From Microbacterium ginsengiterrae (GTDB lineage Bacteria > Actinomycetota > Actinomycetes > Actinomycetales > Microbacteriaceae): DNA of 64,000 nucleotides. Where the stretch lies: positions 2,666,001-2,730,000 of the forward strand of contig NZ_JACHMU010000001.1 of NCBI RefSeq assembly GCF_014205075.1, written 5' to 3'. The notes beneath the pieces are model-generated. The model saw only the letters and a list, made by a program, of their open reading frames with translations. It was not told where the DNA came from and did no database searches. Every line of letters begins with the position of its first letter. Positions within the stretch are counted from its first letter, which is position 1. A program made the translations under genes and the position numbers. Below are positions 3,972 to 22,508 of this stretch, in pieces.

Positions 3972-6442
3972 CCTCCCCGGCTGAGCGGTACGCCGCCGCA
4001 CGCGACGCCGCGGCGCACCCCGAGACCGTCGCGTTCGCCGCGGCACAGCGCTTCGATCTCGACCCGTTCCAGGTCGAGGGCTGCCACGCGCTCGAGCAGG
4101 GGCGCAGCGTGCTCGTGGCGGCGCCCACCGGCGCGGGAAAGACGATCGTCGGCGAGTTCGCGATCCATCTCGCGATGCGGACGCCGTCGGACAAGGCGTT
4201 CTACACGACGCCGATGAAGGCGCTGTCGAACCAGAAGTTCCGTGAGCTCGTCGAGGTGTACGGCGCCGAGAACGTCGGTCTGCTGACGGGCGACACGAAC
4301 ATCAACGGGAACGCGCGGATCGTCGTGATGACGACCGAGGTCCTGCGCAACATGATCTATGCCGACTCCCCGGCGCTCCGCGACCTCCGCTTCGTCGTCA
4401 TGGACGAGGTGCACTACCTCGCGGACCGTTTCCGCGGGGCCGTGTGGGAGGAGGTCATCATCCACCTCCCGTCGTCCGTTCGTCTGGTCTCGCTGAGTGC
4501 GACGGTGTCCAATGCGGAGGAGTTCGGCGACTGGCTCGACACGGTGCGCGGTGACACCGAGGTGATCGTCTCCGAGATCCGCCCCGTCCCGCTCGAACAG
4601 CACGTGCTCGTGCGCGACGATCTTCTTCCGCTCTTCGACGATCGGGCGGGTGTCGCCACGGCGACGGTCAACCAGGAGCTCATGCGGATCCGTTCCTTCA
4701 CCGGTTCCCGCTACGACGGCAATCGCCAGGCGCAGTCGTACCGCAGCAACCGGCACGCGGGGCGCCAGGGTCCCCGTCCGCCCCGCGGCGGACGCCGACC
4801 CGTGCGCTCGGCGAACGCGCAGCGCATCGAGCGGATGGATCGGCCCGATGTCGTCCAGCTCCTCGAGCGCACGAACCTTCTGCCGGCCATCTTCTTCATC
4901 TTCAGCCGCGTGGGGTGCGACGCCGCGGTGCAGCAGGTGCGCCGCTCCGGCATCCGTCTGACGACGCCGGAGGAACGTCGTGAGATCCGCGCCTTCGTCG
5001 ATGAGAGCACCCGCACGCTGCAGGACGAGGACCTCGGTGTCCTCGGCTTCTTCGAATGGGTCGACAACCTCGAGCGCGGCGTCGCCTCCCACCACGCCGG
5101 CCTGCTCCCGGCGTTCAAGGAGGTCGTCGAGGAACTCTTCCGCCGCAAGCTCGTCAAGGTCGTCTTCGCGACGGAGACCCTCGCACTCGGCATCAACATG
5201 CCGGCCCGAACGGTCGTGCTCGAGAAGATGGAGAAGTTCAACGGCGAGGCCCGAGTGGCGATCACGTCGGGGGAGTACACCCAGCTGACCGGTCGCGCGG
5301 GCCGCCGCGGCATCGATGTCGAAGGTCATGCCGTGGTGCAGTGGACCGAAGGCATGGACCCGCAGGCGGTCGCTGCGCTCGCGTCACGGCGCACGTACCC
5401 GCTGAACTCCAGCTTCCGCCCGACCTACAACATGGCGGTGAACCTCATCGACCTGTTCGGACGTCCCAGGGCGAGGGAGATCCTGGAGTCGTCCTTCGCG
5501 CAGTTCCAGGCCGACCGCGCGGTCGTCGGACTGGCCAGGCAGGTCCGCGAGGCTGAGGAATCGCTGGACGGATACCGGACGGCGATGCAGTGCGACCACG
5601 GAGACTTCCTCGAATACGCCGGCATCCGCCGCGAGCTCAGCGACCTCGAGAAGAAGAACCGGCAGGACGCACACGCCCCGCGCGCCGCGCGCGACAAGCG
5701 TCTCAAGCGGATCCAGGGTCTGCGCACCCGTATGCAGCGACACGGCTGCCACGGATGCCCGGATCGTGAGGCGCATGCACGCTGGGCGGAGCGCTACTGG
5801 AAGCTGAAGAGGCAGACCGACCGCACCCGCAAGCAGATCGCGACGCGCACCGGCACCGTGGCGCGCGTGTTCGACCGCGTCGTGGACGTCCTGACGACCC
5901 TGGATTACGTCACGGGGGAGGGGGATGACACCGCCCTGACGGATGCCGGGCGCACGATGCGCCGCATCTACGGCGAGCGGGACCTGCTGGTGGCCGAGTC
6001 GCTGCGCCAGGGACTGTGGGAAGGGCTGGACGCTCCTTCGCTCGCCGCCATGGCGTGCTGCCTGGTCTACGAACCGCGCAGGGACGAGGCCAACTCCGGG
6101 GAGCGCGGTCTTCCGCGCGGCCGGTTCCGGACCGCGTACGAGAAGACGACGACGCTGTGGTCAGAGCTCGACGACCTCGAGCAGGCCCACGACCTCCCCG
6201 GCTCCGAGCCACTGGCGGCCGGTCTCGCCGGCGCGATGCACGCGTGGGCACGCGGCGGTCAGCTCGACCGCGTGCTCGTCGACGCCGACATGGCCGCCGG
6301 CGACTTCGTCCGCTGGGCGAAGCAGACGATCGATCTGCTCGACCAGCTCTCGATCGTCGCAGAGGATCTCACGCTCGCCCGTACCGCGCGTCAGGCCCTC
6401 GATGGCGTGCGCCGCGGCATCGTCGCGTACTCGACGATGTGA
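3968..6442 (+). CDS. Ski2-like superfamily 2 RNA helicase (HelY type)
   Basis: The 824-residue protein has Walker A APTGAGKT at residues 52-59, a DEVH box at 146-149, SLSATVSN as motif III, the Q-L-T-G-R-A-G-R-R-G motif VI, and a C-terminal helical region typical of DSHCT domains. A cysteine-containing charged insertion in the middle (C-H-G-C-P) resembles the rRNA-processing arch of Mtr4/Ski2 relatives. Members unwind RNA during processing and decay; the actual substrate in actinobacteria is not well defined. The gene begins in an ATGA overlap with tatC and runs into lnt, part of a conserved actinobacterial cluster. Confidence 0.92.
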   Translation: MTSPAERYAAARDAAAHPETVAFAAAQRFDLDPFQVEGCHALEQGRSVLVAAPTGAGKTIVGEFAIHLAMRTPSDKAFYTTPMKALSNQKFRELVEVYGAENVGLLTGDTNINGNARIVVMTTEVLRNMIYADSPALRDLRFVVMDEVHYLADRFRGAVWEEVIIHLPSSVRLVSLSATVSNAEEFGDWLDTVRGDTEVIVSEIRPVPLEQHVLVRDDLLPLFDDRAGVATATVNQELMRIRSFTGSRYDGNRQAQSYRSNRHAGRQGPRPPRGGRRPVRSANAQRIERMDRPDVVQLLERTNLLPAIFFIFSRVGCDAAVQQVRRSGIRLTTPEERREIRAFVDESTRTLQDEDLGVLGFFEWVDNLERGVASHHAGLLPAFKEVVEELFRRKLVKVVFATETLALGINMPARTVVLEKMEKFNGEARVAITSGEYTQLTGRAGRRGIDVEGHAVVQWTEGMDPQAVAALASRRTYPLNSSFRPTYNMAVNLIDLFGRPRAREILESSFAQFQADRAVVGLARQVREAEESLDGYRTAMQCDHGDFLEYAGIRRELSDLEKKNRQDAHAPRAARDKRLKRIQGLRTRMQRHGCHGCPDREAHARWAERYWKLKRQTDRTRKQIATRTGTVARVFDRVVDVLTTLDYVTGEGDDTALTDAGRTMRRIYGERDLLVAESLRQGLWEGLDAPSLAAMACCLVYEPRRDEANSGERGLPRGRFRTAYEKTTTLWSELDDLEQAHDLPGSEPLAAGLAGAMHAWARGGQLDRVLVDADMAAGDFVRWAKQTIDLLDQLSIVAEDLTLARTARQALDGVRRGIVAYSTM

Positions 6443-15177: not shown

Positions 15178-15723
15178 CGATACGAGATTGCGCCTCTCGT
15201 GCGGGCGTGCTGGGACTTCCGGGGGAATCGACCTCGACGCAGCTCTCGAGTTCTGCGTCGAGGTGCGCACGTCTGACGGGTGCTCGAATGGGTTGCCGCC
15301 GGGACCGGGTACGCGGATGGTCTCCGGCAGATTCGATGATCGTCGCAGTGGCGCGCCGGCGGGAAGGCCGCAGAGTGTGAGGATCGCCTCGAGTGTGAAG
15401 GCGACTGCGACCTGCATGGGCGCGACCGTCAGGCCCGTGCGTACAGCGACACGTGTGCTGTGGGCTCCGTGGTGAGTGGCGTGTACGGAGACGCGCTGAC
15501 TATTCGACGCGGAAACGCGCTCCGTGTCCGGCGTAGGGTAAAGCCGATAATGCACATTATGTCAGTTCGAAGCTGACAGGTCTGCGCGGATGCGCTCTCC
15601 CACCCTGGCGCGGGTAGGCCCGCCGGTGACGATCGTTTGCGGTGGAGCCGCCTCGTGATCGCCGAAGACGTCGTCGCATCGTTGCGGTACCCGTGACGCG
15701 CCATCCATGGGACCATCGGTTGT
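15178..15723. other. Long intergenic stretch, no convincing gene
   Basis: No frame here has both a plausible start and a recognisable protein. A 14-base palindrome ATAATG-CA-CATTAT lies at 15547-15560, followed by a GTCAG/CTGAC inverted repeat (15561-15577), which may be a regulator site. One copy of the AACGATCGTT-type palindrome is at 15621-15644. The segment could contain the remnant of the gene once divergent from marR, but I see no family resemblance. Confidence 0.5.
15621..15644. repeat. Island palindrome, copy A
   Basis: A 24-base imperfect palindrome centred on ACGATCGT, with CGCCGG on the left and CGGTG on the right. It is the most diverged arm pair of the main copies (G-T-G-A on the left where others have A-A-A-A). 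Confidence 0.6.
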
Positions 15724-15828
15724 ATGAGCACTCCGGTCCTCGCCATCGTCTGTGCCCTCGGGATCATTGTTCCGGTGGCGCTCGGCTTCCTGCCGAGCCA
15801 GCGTAAGCGGCGTGCAGCGCGACATTGA
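15724..15828 (+). CDS. Possible 34-residue single-helix membrane peptide
   Basis: An ATG at 15724 opens a 34-codon frame. The peptide has a hydrophobic N-terminal helix (V-L-A-I-V-C-A-L-G-I-I-V-P-V-A-L-G-F) followed by a basic tail (R-K-R-R-A-A-R-H), the layout of a small membrane protein with a cytoplasmic tail. Codon third positions are mostly G or C. There is no good ribosome binding site. It lies alone between palindrome copies A and B. It could equally be a chance frame. Confidence 0.3.
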   Translation: MSTPVLAIVCALGIIVPVALGFLPSQRKRRAARH

Positions 15829-15868
15829 GTCGCGCGGCCGCGTCCGCCGGTACAGCGCATAGTTGACC

Positions 15869-15892
15869 GACCGAAAACGATCGTTTACGGCG
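15869..15892. repeat. Island palindrome, copy B
   Basis: The core CCGAAAACGATCGTTTACGG matches copy D at all but one position. It is followed by CGGGG, as in copy D. Confidence 0.7.
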
Positions 15893-16065
15893 GGGTTGCT
15901 GCGCCCAGCTCGGCACGCCTACCGCAAACGTCCGGCGTAACCACGGATTGACGAGGCTTTTGGACGGGTGACGCGGAAGTGTGGCATCTCATTGGCAACC
16001 GAGCAGTCCGCACCCGAGCCGTCGGCTCCGGCACAGTCGGCGCCGCCGCACGGGCCATCTGCACT

Positions 16066-16089
16066 CGCCGAGAACGATCGGTGCCGGCA
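16066..16089. repeat. Island palindrome, degenerate copy C
   Basis: CGCCGAGAACGATCG on the left matches copy D with one change; the right arm is diverged (GTGCCGGCA). Counted as a degenerate member of the family. Confidence 0.45.
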
Positions 16090-16187
16090 TGAGCGAATGG
16101 CGCCCTCTCTGACGCCCGCGCAGATGATGTTCAGAACGAGCTTTGGGCCGACAGATTCAGCGGCCGGTGGGTGTCGGCCAGGGTCGG

Positions 16188-16193
16188 TAGCCT
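16188..16193 (+). promoter_or_regulatory. Leaderless promoter -10 (NTF2-like gene)
   Basis: TAGCCT ends six bases before the GTG start at 16200, so transcription should begin at or next to the start codon. No ribosome binding site is present, as expected for a leaderless mRNA. Confidence 0.6.
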
Positions 16194-16199
16194 GGGGGC

Positions 16200-16583
16200 G
16201 TGATTGCTGTTGAGTTGCTGGGTGGCCTGATGTCCGCGATTGATGATCACCGCTGGGGAGACTTGGGCGCGTTTCTTCATGACGATTTCTCGTGCCGATA
16301 CGTTCACACTGGGGAGTCCTTCGATCGAGCGTCCTGGATTCGGCTGAACGCGGAGTATCCAGGATTCGAGCACTTGCGTGTCGAAGAGATTGTCGGAGAT
16401 TCGGGCCGAGCGGCCTGTCGCTCCCATGTCACGGGGCGAGGTCGTGAAGGCGTGGATCACTTCGAGTGTGCGACGTTCGTCCGAGTAAGGGACGGGCTGA
16501 TTTGTGAGATGACCGAGGTCTGGACGGACGTCTCTCAGGCCGCGCCTGCTGGCAGCCGGCCAGACTCAACGCCGTCTGCCTGA
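16200..16583 (+). CDS. NTF2-like/SnoaL-type small protein
   Basis: The 127-residue product shows the alternating pattern of the SnoaL/NTF2-like alpha-beta barrel: a helical start, then H-D-D-F-S-C-R-Y-V-H-T-G-E-S-F, a middle helix, and final strands (F-E-C-A-T-F-V-R-V-R-D-G-L-I-C-E-M-T-E-V-W). Fold members include isomerases, hydrolases and binding proteins, so no reaction can be named. It starts at GTG with a leaderless promoter. Third codon positions are visibly less G+C-rich than in neighbouring core genes, suggesting transfer. It stands alone between palindrome copies C and D. Confidence 0.65.
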   Translation: MIAVELLGGLMSAIDDHRWGDLGAFLHDDFSCRYVHTGESFDRASWIRLNAEYPGFEHLRVEEIVGDSGRAACRSHVTGRGREGVDHFECATFVRVRDGLICEMTEVWTDVSQAAPAGSRPDSTPSA

Positions 16584-16680
16584 CTGAGTGGTCCTCCGCC
16601 GCCTCGAGTTGAGCAGCCGGGCCTGCCTACCGGGTGTGGGCGAGGCGGTAGGGGGCGGTGCTTGTTTCGATGATGGTGCC

Positions 16681-16704
16681 CGCCGAAAACGATCGTTTTC
16701 GGCG
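16681..16704. repeat. Island palindrome, copy D (perfect, 24 bases)
   Basis: This is the best copy: a perfect 24-base palindrome whose central 20 bases are CCGAAAACGATCGTTTTCGG, flanked by CG on each side. It sits between the NTF2-like and acetyltransferase genes, 97 bases after one stop and 80 bases before the next start. Confidence 0.85.
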
Positions 16705-16771
16705 GGGGCGCAATGCCGAGATCGCCAGGCCCCGCGATGATGTGGTGGACAGGCGCAAGTCTTCCTCGGGA

Positions 16772-16777
16772 TAGGCT
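16772..16777 (+). promoter_or_regulatory. Leaderless promoter -10 (GNAT gene)
   Basis: TAGGCT ends seven bases before ATG 16785. This fixes the likely start and argues against upstream in-frame starts, which would place the promoter inside the coding sequence. Confidence 0.6.
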
Positions 16778-16784
16778 CACCTCG

Positions 16785-17759
16785 ATGACAACCCCCGATG
16801 TAGTACTTGCTGCCGAGAGATGGACCTCGCCACAGATCAAGCACTGGTCGCCTCAGTGGCGAGACAACTTGGCTCAATGGCTTGAGCCAAGCCTCGCGCT
16901 CGTGGGCGATGCGGAGTGGGGCGGTCAGATCCGCGACATGGTCCAGCTCCCCGTCCAGGATCCTTTGGCCTGGGCCAACCGGCTAATCGAGCTGTCGGAT
17001 GGACACTGGGCTGTCGTGGGCATCCGCTTCCGGGGCCGAGACATCGAGAAGCCGTTTGTGGACGTGATCGCAACATCGCTTCCTCCTGTGCCCTCAGGCC
17101 TTGCTGCTCTCGGCGAGGTTCTGCCGCACTTCAGCGCATTCTCGCCACTATGCCTGCGGGTCAACATGCCTGATCCGGCGAGGGAACTTCAAGCGCTTGC
17201 TGCTTCGAATGCGGATGCTGGACGAGCCACCCCGGATCTGCTCATAGTGGGGCGCCCCGTGGCCGAGATGCTTGCGCGGCCGGTCGCCAGCCGATACGAC
17301 GATGTTTCGCTCGTCCCTTGCGAGCCTGCGGCAGCGGCAGCACGCGTCGCAACAATCTACGACGAGCTGGCGCCGTCGCGGCCACAACTCGAACAATGGG
17401 CCACGCCGGCCGACGCCGATGCGCTCGAGGACGCCGCCGACGAGAATCTTCTTTTCGACGTTCGAGTCAACGGCACCTCAGCAGGCCTCATTGCGGCTGA
17501 GCGGGATGATGCCTACGGGTTCACCGGCTTCTGCGTTCAGGAGATTGTTCTCGACTCAGACCACCGTGGACAACAGATCGGCGTCGCCGCCCTGCAACGG
17601 CTGTGCCGAGAGCTACCCTCGGCTCCTCATGACGTGCTCTGGGGCCATATCCATCCCGGAAACGTCCCCTCTCTCCGCAATGCGCAGGAGAGCGGACGCA
17701 AGGTGGTAGCCGCCCACGTGTGGCTGACACCGCCCGGGTACAACGGTATGCCCGAATAG
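16785..17759 (+). CDS. Protein with C-terminal GNAT acetyltransferase domain
   Basis: The 324-residue product has a GNAT-like C-terminal half: a strand pair A-G-L-I-A-A-E-R-D-D-A-Y-G-F-T-G-F, a core strand V-Q-E-I-V-L-D-S, the acetyl-CoA loop H-R-G-Q-Q-I-G-V-A-A-L, and a late W-G-H-I-H-P-G-N-V-P-S-L-R-N-A segment. These enzymes move an acetyl group from acetyl-CoA to an amine. The N-terminal 190 residues are of no family I recognise. The gene begins with a leaderless promoter, has lower third-position G+C than core genes, and lies between palindrome copies D and E, all pointing to acquisition. Substrate unknown. Confidence 0.7.
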   Translation: MTTPDVVLAAERWTSPQIKHWSPQWRDNLAQWLEPSLALVGDAEWGGQIRDMVQLPVQDPLAWANRLIELSDGHWAVVGIRFRGRDIEKPFVDVIATSLPPVPSGLAALGEVLPHFSAFSPLCLRVNMPDPARELQALAASNADAGRATPDLLIVGRPVAEMLARPVASRYDDVSLVPCEPAAAAARVATIYDELAPSRPQLEQWATPADADALEDAADENLLFDVRVNGTSAGLIAAERDDAYGFTGFCVQEIVLDSDHRGQQIGVAALQRLCRELPSAPHDVLWGHIHPGNVPSLRNAQESGRKVVAAHVWLTPPGYNGMPE

Positions 17760-18199
17760 GGAATGCAACGCTGATCCCAACGGTCCGCTCCGCGTGCGAG
17801 TCACCGTTCCACCGTCGCCGAAAACCCTTGCCGTTTGCTAGTTATGACGAACGTTTGTGGCAGGCGTTCCAAGCCTTAGCTCTGGACCCTGCCTAAAACG
17901 ATCGTTTACGGCAATCCGGCCGGTGATGACCTTCATGCGCGCGACACGCCGACCTTGACCCGCCGAAACCCACCGCCGAAACCTCACGGCGCCGAAACGC
18001 GTGTGGTACGTATTCGGCGCAGAGTCGGACGAGCGCTCTCGACAATCAGAACGCCCGTCACGAGTACGCCGAGTCACCGGTCGGTAATCGAAAACCCGGG
18101 TGCGCTCCCCCGCATCTGCCCTCAGTGCAGGTGGCACCCTCCTCAGGCGTGATGACAGCCGTTCCCGACCGCGACGAGCAGGCTCGACGCCGACCACGT
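17760..18199. other. Intergenic stretch with palindrome copy E and half-sites
   Basis: I find no convincing gene in this 440-base stretch. Besides copy E (17890-17913), it has CGCCGAAAAC at 17816-17825 and three CGCCGAAAC repeats at 17961, 17974 and 17990. All match the left arm of the palindrome family. A frame on the minus strand (17838-18203) is arginine-rich and looks like a chance product of base composition. Confidence 0.55.
17890..17913. repeat. Island palindrome, copy E
   Basis: TGCC and GGCA ends enclose an AAAACGATCGTTTA centre. It is a good but not perfect palindrome, 130 bases after the acetyltransferase stop, and marks the right end of the series. Confidence 0.7.
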
Positions 18200-19303
18200 T
18201 CACGTCATGATGATCGCCGGCTCTGTGCCGTCCGGCGCGACGAATCGGGCCAGGTGGGTGGCCTCGTCCCGCACAGCTGCTGTCTCGGCATCCGTCAGCG
18301 GCCGGAAGGGCGCCATGCGCAACTGATCGCGGGTCAGGCTCCAGCTTCCTTCGACGAAGCCGTCGACGAGGAACAGAGGTACGCCCGCGGACGCCCGGGG
18401 TGCGATACGTCGACGATTCTCCTCGCTGATCACCCGGGTCCGGTCCCGGTGCCCGAGAACAGCATTGTCGAAGGCGGGCAGGAACCGGACGGGTGCTGGA
18501 GCGTCCGGTTCGCCGAGCGGCGCGTCGGGCAGGTCGAACAACTCTGCTCCCTGTTCATCCCGGAAGACGCGCAGGCGCGGCCGCTGCCCTTCGACGATCT
18601 CGCGGAGTCGCGTCATCCCCGACCAGGCCTGGACGTCCATGACAGAGGCCGGACCGAATGCGGCGAGGTAGCGCAGCACCATCGTCTCGGGTTGTGATGC
18701 GTCGGCGATCGGTCGGGAGAGCCACTCGTCGGCCAAGGCGACCGGTGTCCCACGGCGATGCCCCCACCCGCCCCAGATGGGGTGAGGGGGTGGATGCACC
18801 AGCGCCTCCAGCAGCTCGAAGGCCTCGGCAAGCCGGCCAGGGCTGCGGCCGGGGAAACGGTGGACGAGCAGGTCGCCGAGCTCCCGGCGCTGCAGCGTCC
18901 TGCCGGTCAGCATCCCCCGCCCGGCGCGGCCGAGCTCGTCCGGATCGATCCCCTCGATCTGCGCCGCGTAGTACGGCTGGGCCAGTGCGCTCCGCACGAG
19001 CGTCGCGACCGTCGCCCGCAGCCAACCGAAGTCCTCGCCGCGGGCCAGATGCTGCGTCCCACGCAACATGGTCGCGTGCACCACGTCCCGGCCCTCCAGC
19101 AGGGACGTGAGGTCGTCGCGCCGGAAGTTCTCCAACCGGGCCCACAGCCCCACATAGGGTCCGTTCGGCACCTGCGCCTGCATCGCCACGAGATGCTCGA
19201 TCGCCTCCCGTGGGGTCCGAGAAACGCGGCGGGTCAGCAGTTGCCGCTCCAGCAGCGTCCGGTTCAGGACTCGCCGCGTGAGTGCGCGCACACCGGCGCT
19301 CAC
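18200..19303 (-). CDS. AlkZ/YcaQ-type winged-helix DNA glycosylase family protein
   Basis: The 367-residue protein belongs to the HTH_42 family. It has the Q-A-Q motif at residues 42-44 (V-A-M-Q-A-Q-V-P-N-G-P-Y), corresponding to the catalytic Q-x-Q of AlkZ, and the conserved H-A-T-M-L-R-G-T-Q-H-L and R-Y-L-A-A-F-G-P-A-S segments. AlkZ in Streptomyces unhooks azinomycin crosslinks and YcaQ removes alkylated bases; most relatives are uncharacterised. It starts at GTG, overlapping the VOC gene stop as GTGA, so the two are co-translated. A repair role for alkylated DNA is likely but not proven. Confidence 0.82.
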   Translation of the reverse strand: MSAGVRALTRRVLNRTLLERQLLTRRVSRTPREAIEHLVAMQAQVPNGPYVGLWARLENFRRDDLTSLLEGRDVVHATMLRGTQHLARGEDFGWLRATVATLVRSALAQPYYAAQIEGIDPDELGRAGRGMLTGRTLQRRELGDLLVHRFPGRSPGRLAEAFELLEALVHPPPHPIWGGWGHRRGTPVALADEWLSRPIADASQPETMVLRYLAAFGPASVMDVQAWSGMTRLREIVEGQRPRLRVFRDEQGAELFDLPDAPLGEPDAPAPVRFLPAFDNAVLGHRDRTRVISEENRRRIAPRASAGVPLFLVDGFVEGSWSLTRDQLRMAPFRPLTDAETAAVRDEATHLARFVAPDGTEPAIIMT

Positions 19304-19740
19304 GACTCGTCGACCGACCAGTCCATCGGTACTTCCTGCGTGATACCGATCAGGTTGCCGTCGGCCGCCTTCAACACGGCGAGACGGGCGCCGGGCATGT
19401 CGACGATCCCGGTGCCCGGATCGATGTTGTCACCCTCGGCGGCCTCGGCGGTGCCGAGCTCGGCGAGGGATCCGTCGGCGACCTCGGTCATCGCCGTGGC
19501 CCCGGCGGCGACGAGCGCTCGATGGGCCTGCTCGATGTCCTCGACCGTCCAGAAGACCAGCGGATGATCCACCCACGGCGCCGCGGTCAGCCCGATCTCC
19601 ACGCCATCTCCGGAGAACGCGGCGAACTCGTCGCTGTGGAACGCGGGTTCTCGACCGAGCAACGCCGTCCAGGCAGCGATGCTCGCGGGCAGATCCCGCG
19701 CGGGCAGAACCACATTGCCGAAACCGTTCAACTGCATCAT
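19300..19740 (-). CDS. VOC-superfamily (glyoxalase/dioxygenase-fold) protein
   Basis: The 146-residue product has two beta-alpha-beta-beta-beta modules typical of VOC proteins, with L-P-A-R-D-L-P-A-S-I-A-A-W-T-A-L-L-G near the start and P-L-V-F-W-T-V-E-D-I-E-Q-A-H in the second half. Members include glyoxalases, antibiotic-binding resistance proteins and dioxygenases; no metal-ligand set is clear enough to name one. ATG 19740 (followed by a second ATG) has a strong GAGGAGAG ribosome binding site five bases upstream. It is the first gene of a two-gene unit with the AlkZ-type glycosylase. Confidence 0.8.
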   Translation of the reverse strand: MMQLNGFGNVVLPARDLPASIAAWTALLGREPAFHSDEFAAFSGDGVEIGLTAAPWVDHPLVFWTVEDIEQAHRALVAAGATAMTEVADGSLAELGTAEAAEGDNIDPGTGIVDMPGARLAVLKAADGNLIGITQEVPMDWSVDES

Positions 19741-20009
19741 GAACACTCTCCTCGGAGCCGAGTACATGGCCGGTGGGCGTCACGCTACAGCAGACCTCGG
19801 ACACTCCATGGGCTGTGCGCTGCGGGCTGCGATCGCCCGGTCCTCGTCCGCACTCCCCCGGCCATCGTCCGGCCCGCAGGCCGCGCAAACTACGACGCCG
19901 ACCCCACATCGTCAATGCCCTCTTCTGCGGGGTCTCTTCTCATTACTGTCGGACCGTCGACCACTGCGGTCGAGCAGAGACCGTCCCCGCCACGATCGAG
20001 GAGCAGCAG
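19741..20009. other. Divergent upstream region, no gene seen
   Basis: This gap separates the VOC gene (minus) from the alcohol dehydrogenase cluster (plus). A minus-strand TAGCGT (19782-19787) could be the -10 for the VOC gene. I see no clear plus-strand promoter. Confidence 0.4.
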
Positions 20010-20102
20010 ATGACCCCAGCAGCGGATCCCACTCCCCCGAACGCCATGCCCGCGGGTCGACGACTCGCACCGCGCGCCCCGAGAATGCGCGTGACCCGAT
20101 GA
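20010..20102 (+). CDS. Possible 30-residue coupling peptide before the alcohol dehydrogenase
   Basis: An ATG at 20010 has a GAGGAG ribosome binding site six bases upstream. The 30-codon frame ends in a TGA that overlaps the dehydrogenase ATG as ATGA. The dehydrogenase has no site of its own, so the small frame would deliver ribosomes to it. The peptide is proline- and arginine-rich with a basic end (R-A-P-R-M-R-V-T-R) and resembles nothing I know. It may be a leader whose translation, not product, matters. Confidence 0.5.
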   Translation: MTPAADPTPPNAMPAGRRLAPRAPRMRVTR

Positions 20103-21247
20103 AGGCCATGGCGTACCGCGGACCGTACAAGATCCGCGTCGAAGAGAAACCGCGCCCGAAGATCCAGCATCCGAACGACGCCATCGTCCGCGTGACACGT
20201 GCCGCGGTGTGCGGCTCCGATCTTCATCTGTTCCACGGCATGATGCCGGACACGCGCATCGGCCACACCTTCGGACATGAGATCGTCGGAATCGTCGAGG
20301 ATGTCGGACCGTCGGTGCAGAACCTCCAGCGCGGCGACCGCGTGATGGTCCCGTTCAACATCTACTGCGGTAGCTGTTACTTCTGCAGCCGCGGGTTGTT
20401 CTCGAACTGCCACAACGTCAATCCGAACGCCACCGCCGTCGGCGGCATCTACGGCTACTCGCACACGACGGGCGGTTACGACGGCGGGCAGGCGGAATTC
20501 GTCCGGGTTCCCTTCGCCGATGTGGGACCTTCCGTGATCCCGGAATGGCTGAGCTCGGAAGACGCGCTCATGCTGACGGACGCGTTCTCGACCGGTTACT
20601 TCGGTGCCCAGCTCGGCGACATCGCCGAGCGCGACACGGTGGTCGTCTTCGGCGCCGGCCCTGTCGGACTGGCCGCGGCGCGATCGGCGTGGTTCCTCGG
20701 CGCGGGCCGGGTCATCGTCGTCGACCACATCGACTACCGACTGGAGAAGGCGAAGACCTTCGCGTTCGCGGAGACGATCCATCTGTCGGAGGTGGGCGAC
20801 ATCGTCCTCGCGCTGAAGAAGGCGACCGACTACCTGGGCGCGGATGTCGTGATCGATGCCGTCGGCGCGGAGGCGGACGGGAGCGTCCTGCAGCACGTGA
20901 CCGGCGCGAAGCTGAAGCTGCAGGGCGGCTCACCCGTGGCCGTGAACTGGGCGATCGACTCTGCACGGAAGGGTGGCACGGTGTCGGTCATCGGCGCCTA
21001 CGGCCCGATCGTCTCATCCGTCCGGCTCGGAGACATCGTCAACAAGGGATTGACCGTCCGCGCGAACCAAGCGCCCGTCAAACGTCAGTGGCCCCGCCTG
21101 CTCGAACACATCCAGAACGGGCACCTGCGCCCGAGCGACCTTCTCACTCACCGGTTCCCGCTGGAGCACATCGCCGAGGCGTACCACGTTTTCTCAGCGA
21201 AACTCGACGACTGCATCAAGCCGGTCGTGATCGTCGGAGAGGAATGA
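20099..21247 (+). CDS. Zinc-dependent alcohol dehydrogenase family protein
   Basis: The 382-residue protein has the medium-chain dehydrogenase layout: catalytic zinc ligands C38 and H60-E61 (G-H-E), four structural-zinc cysteines at 90, 93, 96 and 104, and the NAD(P) loop GAGPVG at 185-190. Length and the late V-N-W-A-I-D-S-A-R-K-G-G segment are like the glutathione-independent formaldehyde dehydrogenase group, whose members can be misannotated; substrate not certain. It overlaps the small upstream frame and the next gene (both ATGA). The run of three genes suggests one pathway for alcohol or aldehyde oxidation. Confidence 0.88.
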   Translation: MKAMAYRGPYKIRVEEKPRPKIQHPNDAIVRVTRAAVCGSDLHLFHGMMPDTRIGHTFGHEIVGIVEDVGPSVQNLQRGDRVMVPFNIYCGSCYFCSRGLFSNCHNVNPNATAVGGIYGYSHTTGGYDGGQAEFVRVPFADVGPSVIPEWLSSEDALMLTDAFSTGYFGAQLGDIAERDTVVVFGAGPVGLAAARSAWFLGAGRVIVVDHIDYRLEKAKTFAFAETIHLSEVGDIVLALKKATDYLGADVVIDAVGAEADGSVLQHVTGAKLKLQGGSPVAVNWAIDSARKGGTVSVIGAYGPIVSSVRLGDIVNKGLTVRANQAPVKRQWPRLLEHIQNGHLRPSDLLTHRFPLEHIAEAYHVFSAKLDDCIKPVVIVGEE

Positions 21248-21819
21248 CCATGCCCTACGAATCCGAGAAGCCCGATCTGGCGCCGTCGGCCGAGGACCTC
21301 CGAGCGAGGATTCCCGGCTGGGGCGCGGATCTCCCACCGGAGCACCGCCGCACGTGGCAGCAGCGTGAGGACCTCGAGCCGACGGGAGCCCACTGGAGCT
21401 TCCCCGATCGGCAGGCCGATGACCCACGCCGCGAACGATCCATCGAGCATGCGATGCTTACGCCGGTCTACGGGACCGTGCAACCGCTCCACGGGATCTC
21501 GGGGCGGATCCGCCGATTCGCCTACGATCACCTCAGCGAGACGAAGAACCTGCGCTGGCTCATCCTCGTGCTCGGCGACAGAACCGAATCCGTCGGAGCG
21601 CACGTCCGATCGTTCTTCACCCGGCACCCCGATGAGCCGGTGACGCAGACGGGGGTGCTCTCCGAACCGCGTCATCGGCCGGTGACATCGCGTTTCGGAA
21701 GGGGCCGCCTCGATCCCCGACACGCGTGGCTCGACCCGATCATCGTCGCAGGTCCCTGGGTCGCCGCCGTCGTCCTGCTCCTCGCCCCTCTTCGGCGCTC
21801 GCCGCGACGGAAGCATTGA
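21244..21819 (+). CDS. Conserved protein of unknown function, partner of the dehydrogenase
   Basis: The 191-residue protein begins M-T-M-P-Y-E-S-E-K-P, contains I-P-G-W-G-A-D-L, a T-G-A-H-W-S-F-P-D-R-Q motif and L-T-P-V-Y-G-T, and ends with one probable transmembrane helix (I-V-A-G-P-W-V-A-A-V-V-L-L-L-A) and a basic tail. To my knowledge similar proteins occur next to zinc alcohol dehydrogenases in other bacteria, but their function is undefined. The gene starts inside the dehydrogenase stop (ATGA). The membrane anchor suggests it could place the dehydrogenase at the membrane or link it to electron transfer, which is inference only. Confidence 0.7.
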   Translation: MTMPYESEKPDLAPSAEDLRARIPGWGADLPPEHRRTWQQREDLEPTGAHWSFPDRQADDPRRERSIEHAMLTPVYGTVQPLHGISGRIRRFAYDHLSETKNLRWLILVLGDRTESVGAHVRSFFTRHPDEPVTQTGVLSEPRHRPVTSRFGRGRLDPRHAWLDPIIVAGPWVAAVVLLLAPLRRSPRRKH

Positions 21820-21821
21820 CG

Positions 21822-22508
21822 ATGCCGCTCGTCGTCTCGCGCGTCGCCGGCTGGCTGCTGCGAGGCGGCGTGGCGGTCCTGCTCCTGCTGCGCCGACCGC
21901 GTCCCATCCACTCGTCGGGTGCAGTCTTCGACGGCTGGATGACGCCTCGGCGCGCAGCGGTCCCATCGGGAATCGGATGGATCGACGATCCGCCGGACGG
22001 CGACGTCGAGGTCGTCGCTCGGGTCTCACGCGCGGTGGGGCTACCTGCGTGTCTTCCGGATGTGTATGGAATCGGCATCCGCTGGGAACACGATGGCGCA
22101 CGCACCGACCTGCAGCTCGCCTCCACCGGGCTCGGCTTCCCCGGCCGCCACCTCCTGGTGCCACGACTGTCACCGTCGCGCGCCACCCTGTGCAGCGTGC
22201 TGCCGTACCGCACGGCCCGAGGACCGATCCTCCTGTGTGCACGGTCCATGCCTGTGCGGAAGCTGCCCTCCGGCACCGCCGCGCTGCGGCGGTCGGTGGA
22301 CGAAGAGCCGTGGATGCTGCGTCTCTCGTTCGCCACTCCCCGAGGCAGATGGCATCCGTTCGCTGACGTGCGGTTGGACCGATCCCGCCCGGATGACGAT
22401 CCGAATCTGCGCTTCAACATCGACACCAACCCGCTTCCGGGGGCGTCGCCGTATCGCTGGGTGCAGGCGCTGCGGCGGCCGTCCTATCGACTCGCTCAAC
22501 GAGGATGA
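21822..22508 (+). CDS. Conserved actinobacterial protein of unknown function
   Basis: This 228-residue protein has a hydrophobic N-terminus (A-G-W-L-L-R-G-G-V-A-V-L-L-L-L) followed by a soluble region: G-W-I-D-D-P, R-V-S-R-A-V-G-L-P-A-C-L-P-D-V-Y-G-I-G, L-L-V-P-R, and a late N-P-L-P-G motif before R-R-P-S-Y-R-L-A. I recall similar actinobacterial proteins carrying unsupported names such as phosphodiesterase; I see no catalytic motif that justifies this. It starts two bases after the upstream stop and so belongs with the dehydrogenase pair. Confidence 0.65.
   Translation: MPLVVSRVAGWLLRGGVAVLLLLRRPRPIHSSGAVFDGWMTPRRAAVPSGIGWIDDPPDGDVEVVARVSRAVGLPACLPDVYGIGIRWEHDGARTDLQLASTGLGFPGRHLLVPRLSPSRATLCSVLPYRTARGPILLCARSMPVRKLPSGTAALRRSVDEEPWMLRLSFATPRGRWHPFADVRLDRSRPDDDPNLRFNIDTNPLPGASPYRWVQALRRPSYRLAQRG

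Follow-up and report, generated by a model that had tools for sequence, protein, structure and literature searches.

Here we report that an accessory island in a stretch of Microbacterium ginsengiterrae DNA (64,000 nucleotides of contig NZ_JACHMU010000001.1, positions 2,666,001 to 2,730,000; hereafter the window) is very probably an array of mobile gene cassettes joined at the resolution (res) sites of a small plasmid-type serine resolvase. Comparison of the island with its relatives at the level of sequence revealed a defined site architecture, breakpoints within the site core, reordering and inversion of cassettes and a platform site that adjoins a resolvase gene. An earlier note made from the window sequence alone had described five copies of a palindrome within 2.3 kb, with a 34-codon frame, an NTF2-like gene and a GNAT gene in the intervals, and had suggested either a cassette array or a repeat on which an unknown recombinase acts, with regulator sites or nested small repeats as alternatives.

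All five palindromes (copies A to E of the 22-mer GCCGNAAACGATCGTTTNCGGC; Table 1) were present at the positions described and the three genes lie between them. Copy D is a perfect palindrome as the note had said, but it is perfect over 28 bases (16679-16706) rather than 24. When up to three mismatches were allowed the 20-base core matched the window three times (copies B, D and E), against 0.02 matches expected from shuffling. The shorter query AACGATCGTT (one mismatch at most) matched eight times against 1.55 expected, with three of the eight (15149, 32007 and 58685) falling outside copies A to E. Taking the palindrome to be the repeat unit understated its extent, as copies B and E bear additional conserved motifs beyond it at fixed spacing, giving a site of about 95-130 bp.

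Comparison of strains, which the earlier note had put forward as a check on where insertions or losses end, showed that the closely related Microbacterium barkeri (genome G038) lacks exactly the DNA from B to E. M. barkeri aligned with window positions 15544-15891 and 17895-22009, both at 98% identity, and these two segments are adjacent there. The missing DNA, window positions ~15876-17895 (~2.0 kb), comprises both gene cassettes, and the junction lies inside the palindrome, where a single core is bordered on the left by the flank of B and on the right by that of E. Only about 18 bp are shared at this B/E junction, and in a second pair of loci (L038 and L242) identity likewise stops within the core. 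These short overlaps make it very improbable that homologous recombination between short repeats moves the cassettes with no dedicated recombinase. The copies are indeed repeats and the window genome lacks a cognate resolvase, but under such a scheme the fixed spacing of the accessory motifs and the adjacency of a resolvase gene, both described below, would have no role. A perfect palindrome in intergenic DNA is a typical trait of operators, and the copies could be imagined as operators of LacI- or TetR-type regulators lying by chance between accessory genes. We rejected this explanation, to which we give a practically negligible probability, after finding the empty M. barkeri allele and counting the breakpoints within palindromes; moreover, the palindrome is found only in this island of the genome and has directional accessory motifs at a fixed distance. 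Neither regulator sites nor nested small repeats explain copies restricted to the island, breakpoints in the palindrome and cassettes shared between genomes.

The note had also proposed a search of the remainder of the genome for the core, and the copies proved confined to this island: in the window genome (3,037,642 bases in one contig; 3.04 Mb) AAACGATCGTTT with at most one mismatch gave three matches, all within it. In the genus, exact AAACGATCGTTT was present in 46 of 149 genomes (the window's own counted) as 142 copies, the reversed control gave none and the chance expectation from base composition, at an assumed G+C of 0.69, was about 0.017 copies per genome. The copies were often clustered, 96 of the 142 (77 of 120 plus 19 of 22) having another exact copy no more than 10 kb away. 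An exact copy was found in 50 of 299 genomes of the family; outside the genus 46 of 293 genomes had one, 36 of them as a single copy, with the control found in 5 genomes. These single copies outside the genus may be due to chance or decay. Among the matches listed in a GTDB scan were scattered ones in unrelated taxa, and a search of viral contigs gave no match.

We surveyed breakpoints in 55 loci from 37 genomes, using shared blocks of at least 300 bp and scoring an end as at a core when it fell no more than 25 bp from the centre of the core in both partners. Once ends double-counted in overlapping loci had been removed, 20 of 31 distinct internal block ends were at a core at identities of at least 95%, as were 28 of 74 at identities of at least 90% (21 of 33 and 29 of 77 before removal), against a chance background per end of 0.8% of positions lying that near a core. 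The at-core ends come from 13 genomes and are not all independent, because one cassette can be common to several pairs. Genomes G001 and G066 share a 10.8-kb array that is 99.9% identical up to the core, after which their platform sites differ. The 90 segments between sites (a few counted twice in overlapping loci) fell into 70 families, nine of which occur in more than one genome and in differing orders. Family K1 was found next to K4, K3, K2 or K8, and K2 next to K3, K6, K1 or K8. Cadmium, sulphate-permease and copper cassettes occur in G147, sulphate followed by copper in G033 and cadmium followed by copper in G036; G425, which is placed in another genus, has cadmium, K8, sulphate, K4 and K5. 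The cadmium cassette is inverted in G148. That shared cassettes elsewhere often begin and end at copies supports the cassette array, or recombinase-targeted repeat, which the note had proposed.

The palindrome is the core of a site that comes in two kinds, which we call R, found at the head of a cassette, and T, which is part of the platform that adjoins the resolvase gene. Site I is gCCGnAAACGATCGTTTncGGC, and the full site consists of the symmetric 22-bp core GCCGnAAACGATCGTTTnCGGC plus accessory motifs. The consensus motifs, drawn from 55 R and 31 T flanks, are GCCGnAAACGT-n-CgCCGnAACC...TTnCGGCAG-nn-GnTTTCGG for type R and CGACACGCCG...CCGCCGAAACC...GCCGAAACC...CCGAAAC...TTT..G for type T, each lying on one side of site I. 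Among 111 unique sites (two mismatches at most) 50 were R only, 22 T only, six R/T, three R/R, one T/T and 29 bare. Accessory motifs were present on 82 of the 111 joints at nearly always fixed spacing, the offset from site I being 28-29 bp on 55 of 62 R sides and 26 of 30 T sides. Sides of randomly placed positions passed the motif test at rates of 4.2% (R) and 2.2% (T). The R accessory motifs make a nested dyad which, in 42 sites with an offset of 29, is best centred 62.5 bp from the site I centre with a fraction of 0.50 of the pairs complementary (runner-up centres, 0.41 and 0.40). This distance is about six helical turns, in phase and within the 4-7 turns from site I that are described for accessory sites of the Tn3 type (PMC12217951). 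The T dyad is weaker (best centre 96 bp away, 0.41 of pairs complementary). Both kinds of site hold several motifs, without a clear grouping into dimers. We also considered the R motifs as arms of an attC site and dropped that reading because the breakpoints lie within the core and the gene beside T sites encodes a PF00239 protein.

In three platforms (contig C2 of G083, the G083 chromosome and G116) a T site runs directly up to the start codon of a small serine resolvase gene that is intact, and an array then follows. The G083 contig is plasmid-sized (129,823 bp), its resolvase gene starts at 107071 and 12 cores (four mismatches at most) lie between 71042 and 106949. In locus L236 the T site (4939-5068) ends at the resolvase ATG, and the coordinates in L237 and L238 indicate the same arrangement. 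The resolvase has 189 residues; one of the platform resolvases was scanned and matched PF00239 (E 2.7e-34). The sequence matches a DNA invertase and the gamma-delta resolvase of solved structure and carries the motifs YARVS and LDR. The plasmid and array resolvases (L236:5069-5638 and relatives in L174, L176 and L204-L221) read LDR[LIVP][AG]G[ST]E where the solved invertase reads LDRLGRS, the arginine of which we take to be catalytic. In a tree of 31 rows, from which partial and some weaker matches were left out, the G083 and G116 platform resolvases grouped with those of G033, G060 and G094 in a supported clade (98/94), and all five genomes contain the palindrome. The dN/dS values of 0.03-0.10 among array-clade resolvases (five genes, the altered G060 gene left out) indicate purifying selection on the protein. 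In some relatives the start of a resolvase gene also lies beside a T site; in G060 the T-adjacent frame is open but altered, and the resolvases of G094 and G033 were not observed next to an array. The recombinase that the earlier note had left unnamed is likely to be a small serine resolvase, encoded in relatives rather than in this genome.

Some other recombinase, such as a tyrosine integrase acting in trans, might instead use the palindrome, with the resolvase beside T being incidental. Orphan arrays are the majority, with 34 of the 46 palindrome-positive genomes lacking a resolvase of this family at E ≤1e-40. Although no search aimed at a co-occurring tyrosine recombinase was made, we regard this possibility as quite improbable in view of the three platforms in which T directly precedes an intact resolvase gene, and because the dyad and central AT typical of a resolvase site I are present in the core. 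Three further candidates were rejected. The resolvase of the window genome (G000 C1:200043-200450), the only clear one there, belongs to another type and lacks a nearby core. A recombinase inside a cassette was not found, the proteins commonest across arrays being metal P-type ATPases, regulators and transporters. No gene that could serve as a fixed chromosomal attachment gene was common to the DNA flanking 16 T sites.

Good homologues of the resolvase are found on plasmids, several records placing them beside toxin-antitoxin genes (Fic/VbhA or AbiEii). T-type sites lie upstream of the resolvase on pMspBDGP8A and on pS16-2, in the latter with VbhA and Fic genes between. Related resolvases are carried by plasmids of other actinobacteria, including Cutibacterium pTZC1 with erm(50), on which we saw no array but a single bare core of 12 bases. 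Near the plasmid resolvase region in L175, L177 and L181 lies a trio of recombinase, Mu-type transposase and AAA ATPase genes that recalls res-hunter transposons; in pTZC1 the trio adjoins erm(50). Two plasmids with a common resolvase region (L178 6770-6900 and L174 13276-13420) differ in that site I has been replaced on pYJND-1 with the remainder of the T site kept, as if an insertion had occurred between site I and the accessory part. A scan for T-site motifs beside 30 resolvase loci used a pattern so narrow that it missed known T sites, and its negatives were not used.

Several observations weigh against a resolvase-driven cassette array. The array clade has glycine where LDRLGRS of the invertase has arginine, and the arginine is present in the nearest solved relatives. 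The T-adjacent resolvase gene is broken in G146 (L029), G001 (L040) and G078 (L035). The plasmid resolvase query matched 28 of 149 genus genomes at E ≤1e-40, and this wider family is not significantly linked to the palindrome (12 of 46 genomes with it versus 16 of 103 without, p = 0.17). Only the inner clade fits palindrome presence (five of five genomes), and that clade was chosen post hoc. The window genome lacks a cognate resolvase: it has two PF00239 matches, neither near a core, the plasmid query found nothing there at E ≤1e-40 and no resolvase gene was found beside the type T motifs of the window. Eleven of 31 block ends at ≥95% identity and 46 of 74 at ≥90% are not at cores in both partners. 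When one mismatch was allowed in a search of 30 genomes, the reversed control gave one match each in G015, G029 and G144. The typed R consensus found no match in the plasmid collection. Accessory motifs are missing from 29 of the 111 joints, copy D appearing likewise bare, and Tn3-type recombination requires accessory subsites II and III (PMC12217951, in the portion consulted). The same portion of that source describes small resolvases as normally excising rather than integrating DNA, with very low activity between plasmids.

The preference for excision, together with the T sites upstream of plasmid resolvases and the several broken T-adjacent genes on chromosomes, could favor a passive origin in which the cores are plasmid res relics left by integrated plasmids or transposons and undergo only deletion and inversion, with no capture as units. 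We consider this unlikely as identical cassette families have different neighbors in several genomes, the cassettes possess a distinct type R site of their own and two genomes carry the same 99.9% identical array on different T sites.

The DNA between sites is diverse. The 40 segments between cores measured in 16 loci (some overlapping, so that a few segments are counted twice) range from 248 to 8400 bp with a median of 1486, and the longest, of up to 8.4 kb, can hold whole operons. The encoded proteins include copper and cadmium P-type ATPases with their regulators, a cadmium transporter, a sulphate permease and several GNATs, plus HIT, SnoaL, epoxide hydrolase, HxlR, MerR, GntR, MFS, ABC, GrpB and rhodanese proteins. 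In one scanned set, picked by hand from the frames rather than drawn at random, three of 20 proteins had no family. The copper cassette matched 21 plasmid records, none across more than 80% of its length.

The proposed mechanism would have the resolvase as the agent, pairing two sites and exchanging strands at the central AT of the core. Excision of a cassette would yield a circle with one R site, which would then be inserted by the reverse reaction at a different core, most of all that of a T site. As the core is symmetric, a cassette could enter in either direction. Resolvases of the Tn3 type make their cuts at the central 2 bp of site I and seldom join two separate plasmids (PMC12217951, in the portion consulted), and on these properties excision fits well and integration would be the weak step. 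The window array is an orphan copy without its own resolvase and would depend on one in trans, which a plasmid could supply.

Among the systems described to date, integrons, pdif modules and res-hunting insertions come closest. Integrons consist of the tyrosine integrase IntI, an attI site and attC gene cassettes, the attC sites being recombined as folded single strands. The arrays resemble integrons in having cassettes of mostly one to a few genes, many with their own site, from a diverse pool; a separate platform site beside the recombinase gene; orphan arrays that lack a recombinase; and a cassette content that varies from strain to strain, the breakpoints falling at the sites. They differ in that the platform recombinase (two platforms in G083 and one in G116) is a 189-residue serine resolvase rather than IntI, for which no search was made, and in that crossover falls in a symmetric 22-bp core, cassettes lie in both directions and whole operons are found between sites. 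The R accessory motifs make a nested dyad, but the breakpoints fall outside it, in site I.

The pdif modules of Acinetobacter, which involve XerCD, contain adaptive genes flanked by short recombination sites and cluster in accessory regions of plasmids and also of chromosomes; the pdif sites are 28-bp XerC/XerD sites (PMC6449649, in the portion consulted). The likeness is that here too adaptive genes (copper, cadmium, sulphate transport, GNAT, SnoaL and others) lie between sites clustered in accessory DNA. The sites differ in having a 22-bp serine resolvase core and R or T accessory parts, and were set apart from pdif by length and description rather than by alignment with dif. In common with Tn3-family and plasmid res systems the arrays have a small serine resolvase (189 residues, the family having about 180-210) and a site of about 120-130 bp directly upstream with a dyad core, a central AT and an accessory dyad in helical phase (features taken from the portion of PMC12217951 consulted). 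In those systems, by the same account (PMC12217951), one res site per element resolves cointegrates or multimers, whereas here up to 12 cores in a row (G083 contig C2) join exchangeable genes. Res-hunter transposons of the Tn5053 family and In104 beside res in SGI1 also illustrate accessory genes gathering at res sites (PMC7765201 and PMC12217951, in the portions consulted), but these insert by transposition, whereas here the breakpoints are inside site I and the cassettes have their own res site.

In the window, copy B is type R, copy E has R motifs on its left and T motifs on its right and copy D is bare. Hence, the GNAT cassette appears to run opposite in direction to the SnoaL cassette and D would be their tail-tail joint. 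Copies A and C look decayed. About 57 bp to the left of D (window 16631-16687) match actinobacterial plasmids at 83-90%, and in nine of the 15 plasmid records listed this piece sits at istB of IS21-like elements; it may be left over from an insertion sequence (IS) at the SnoaL cassette tail. When the whole island was compared with plasmids, only a piece of 50-65 bp aligned among the matches listed (15 of 32 records). The block shared with M. barkeri (window 15544-22009 versus locus L184) is 98% identical and the neighboring UvrA-like gene 82%, so the block itself seems to have been shared recently. Just past the far end of this block M. barkeri has a second, decayed T-like site (L184 4148-4169), and the AlkZ-like, glyoxalase and alcohol dehydrogenase genes may thus form a 4.3-kb cassette.

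Table 1 Features of the cassette array in the window. Mismatches are to GCCGNAAACGATCGTTTNCGGC.
Feature	Position	Strand	Remarks
Copy A, apparently decayed site I at the left array end	15622..15643		3 mismatches; also in M. barkeri (L184 8733)
Small cassette A-B, 248 bp, with 34-codon frame (15724-15828)	15633..15880	+	Family K7; equal 248-bp unit in M. barkeri
Copy B, site I of a type R (cassette-head) res site	15870..15891	+	1 mismatch
Cassette B-D, head at B, tail at D; holds copy C and the SnoaL-like gene	15881..16692	+	Absent from M. barkeri
Accessory part of copy B (ACCGCAAACGTCCGGCGTAACC...), 29 bp past site I	15921..15965	+	
Copy C, apparently decayed site I within cassette B-D	16067..16088		3 mismatches
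SnoaL-like (NTF2 fold) gene, 127 residues	16200..16583	+	SnoaL_2, PF12680, E 5e-8
Copy D, perfect site I with no clear accessory motifs on either side	16682..16703		0 mismatches
Cassette D-E, inverted relative to B-D, head toward E	16693..17901	-	Absent from M. barkeri
GNAT acetyltransferase gene, 324 residues	16785..17759	+	PF00583, E 1e-5
Type R accessory motifs of the inverted GNAT cassette (GCCACAAACGTTCGTCATAAC...GTTTTCGGC on the minus strand)	17817..17861	-	Score 0.90 on this side
Copy E, site I common to the GNAT cassette head (left) and a type T res site (right)	17891..17912	+	1 mismatch
Type T (platform) accessory motifs CGACACGCCG...CCGCCGAAACC...CGCCGAAACC...GCCGAAAC-N-TATTCGGC	17942..18020	+	

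With moderate confidence we propose that these elements would constitute a serine integron, a gene-capture system of independent origin in Microbacterium and its neighbors. It would be made up of a platform (resolvase plus T site) and R-site cassettes, which would enter double-stranded DNA in either orientation and bring single genes as well as whole metal-resistance operons from plasmid to chromosome. A literature search, with most subscription journals and preprints outside its coverage, gave no report of a serine-resolvase cassette array. Cassette capture is already known from integrons, with their tyrosine integrase, and from pdif modules, with XerCD; if our reading is true, the gene-cassette design also arose from a different recombinase class, the serine resolvases. 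The sites and enzymes are at hand for testing whether a small resolvase integrates DNA besides excising it. Such a system would explain the modular copper, cadmium and other accessory genes of Microbacterium, and actinobacteria may have a second, unrecognized route for collecting useful genes.

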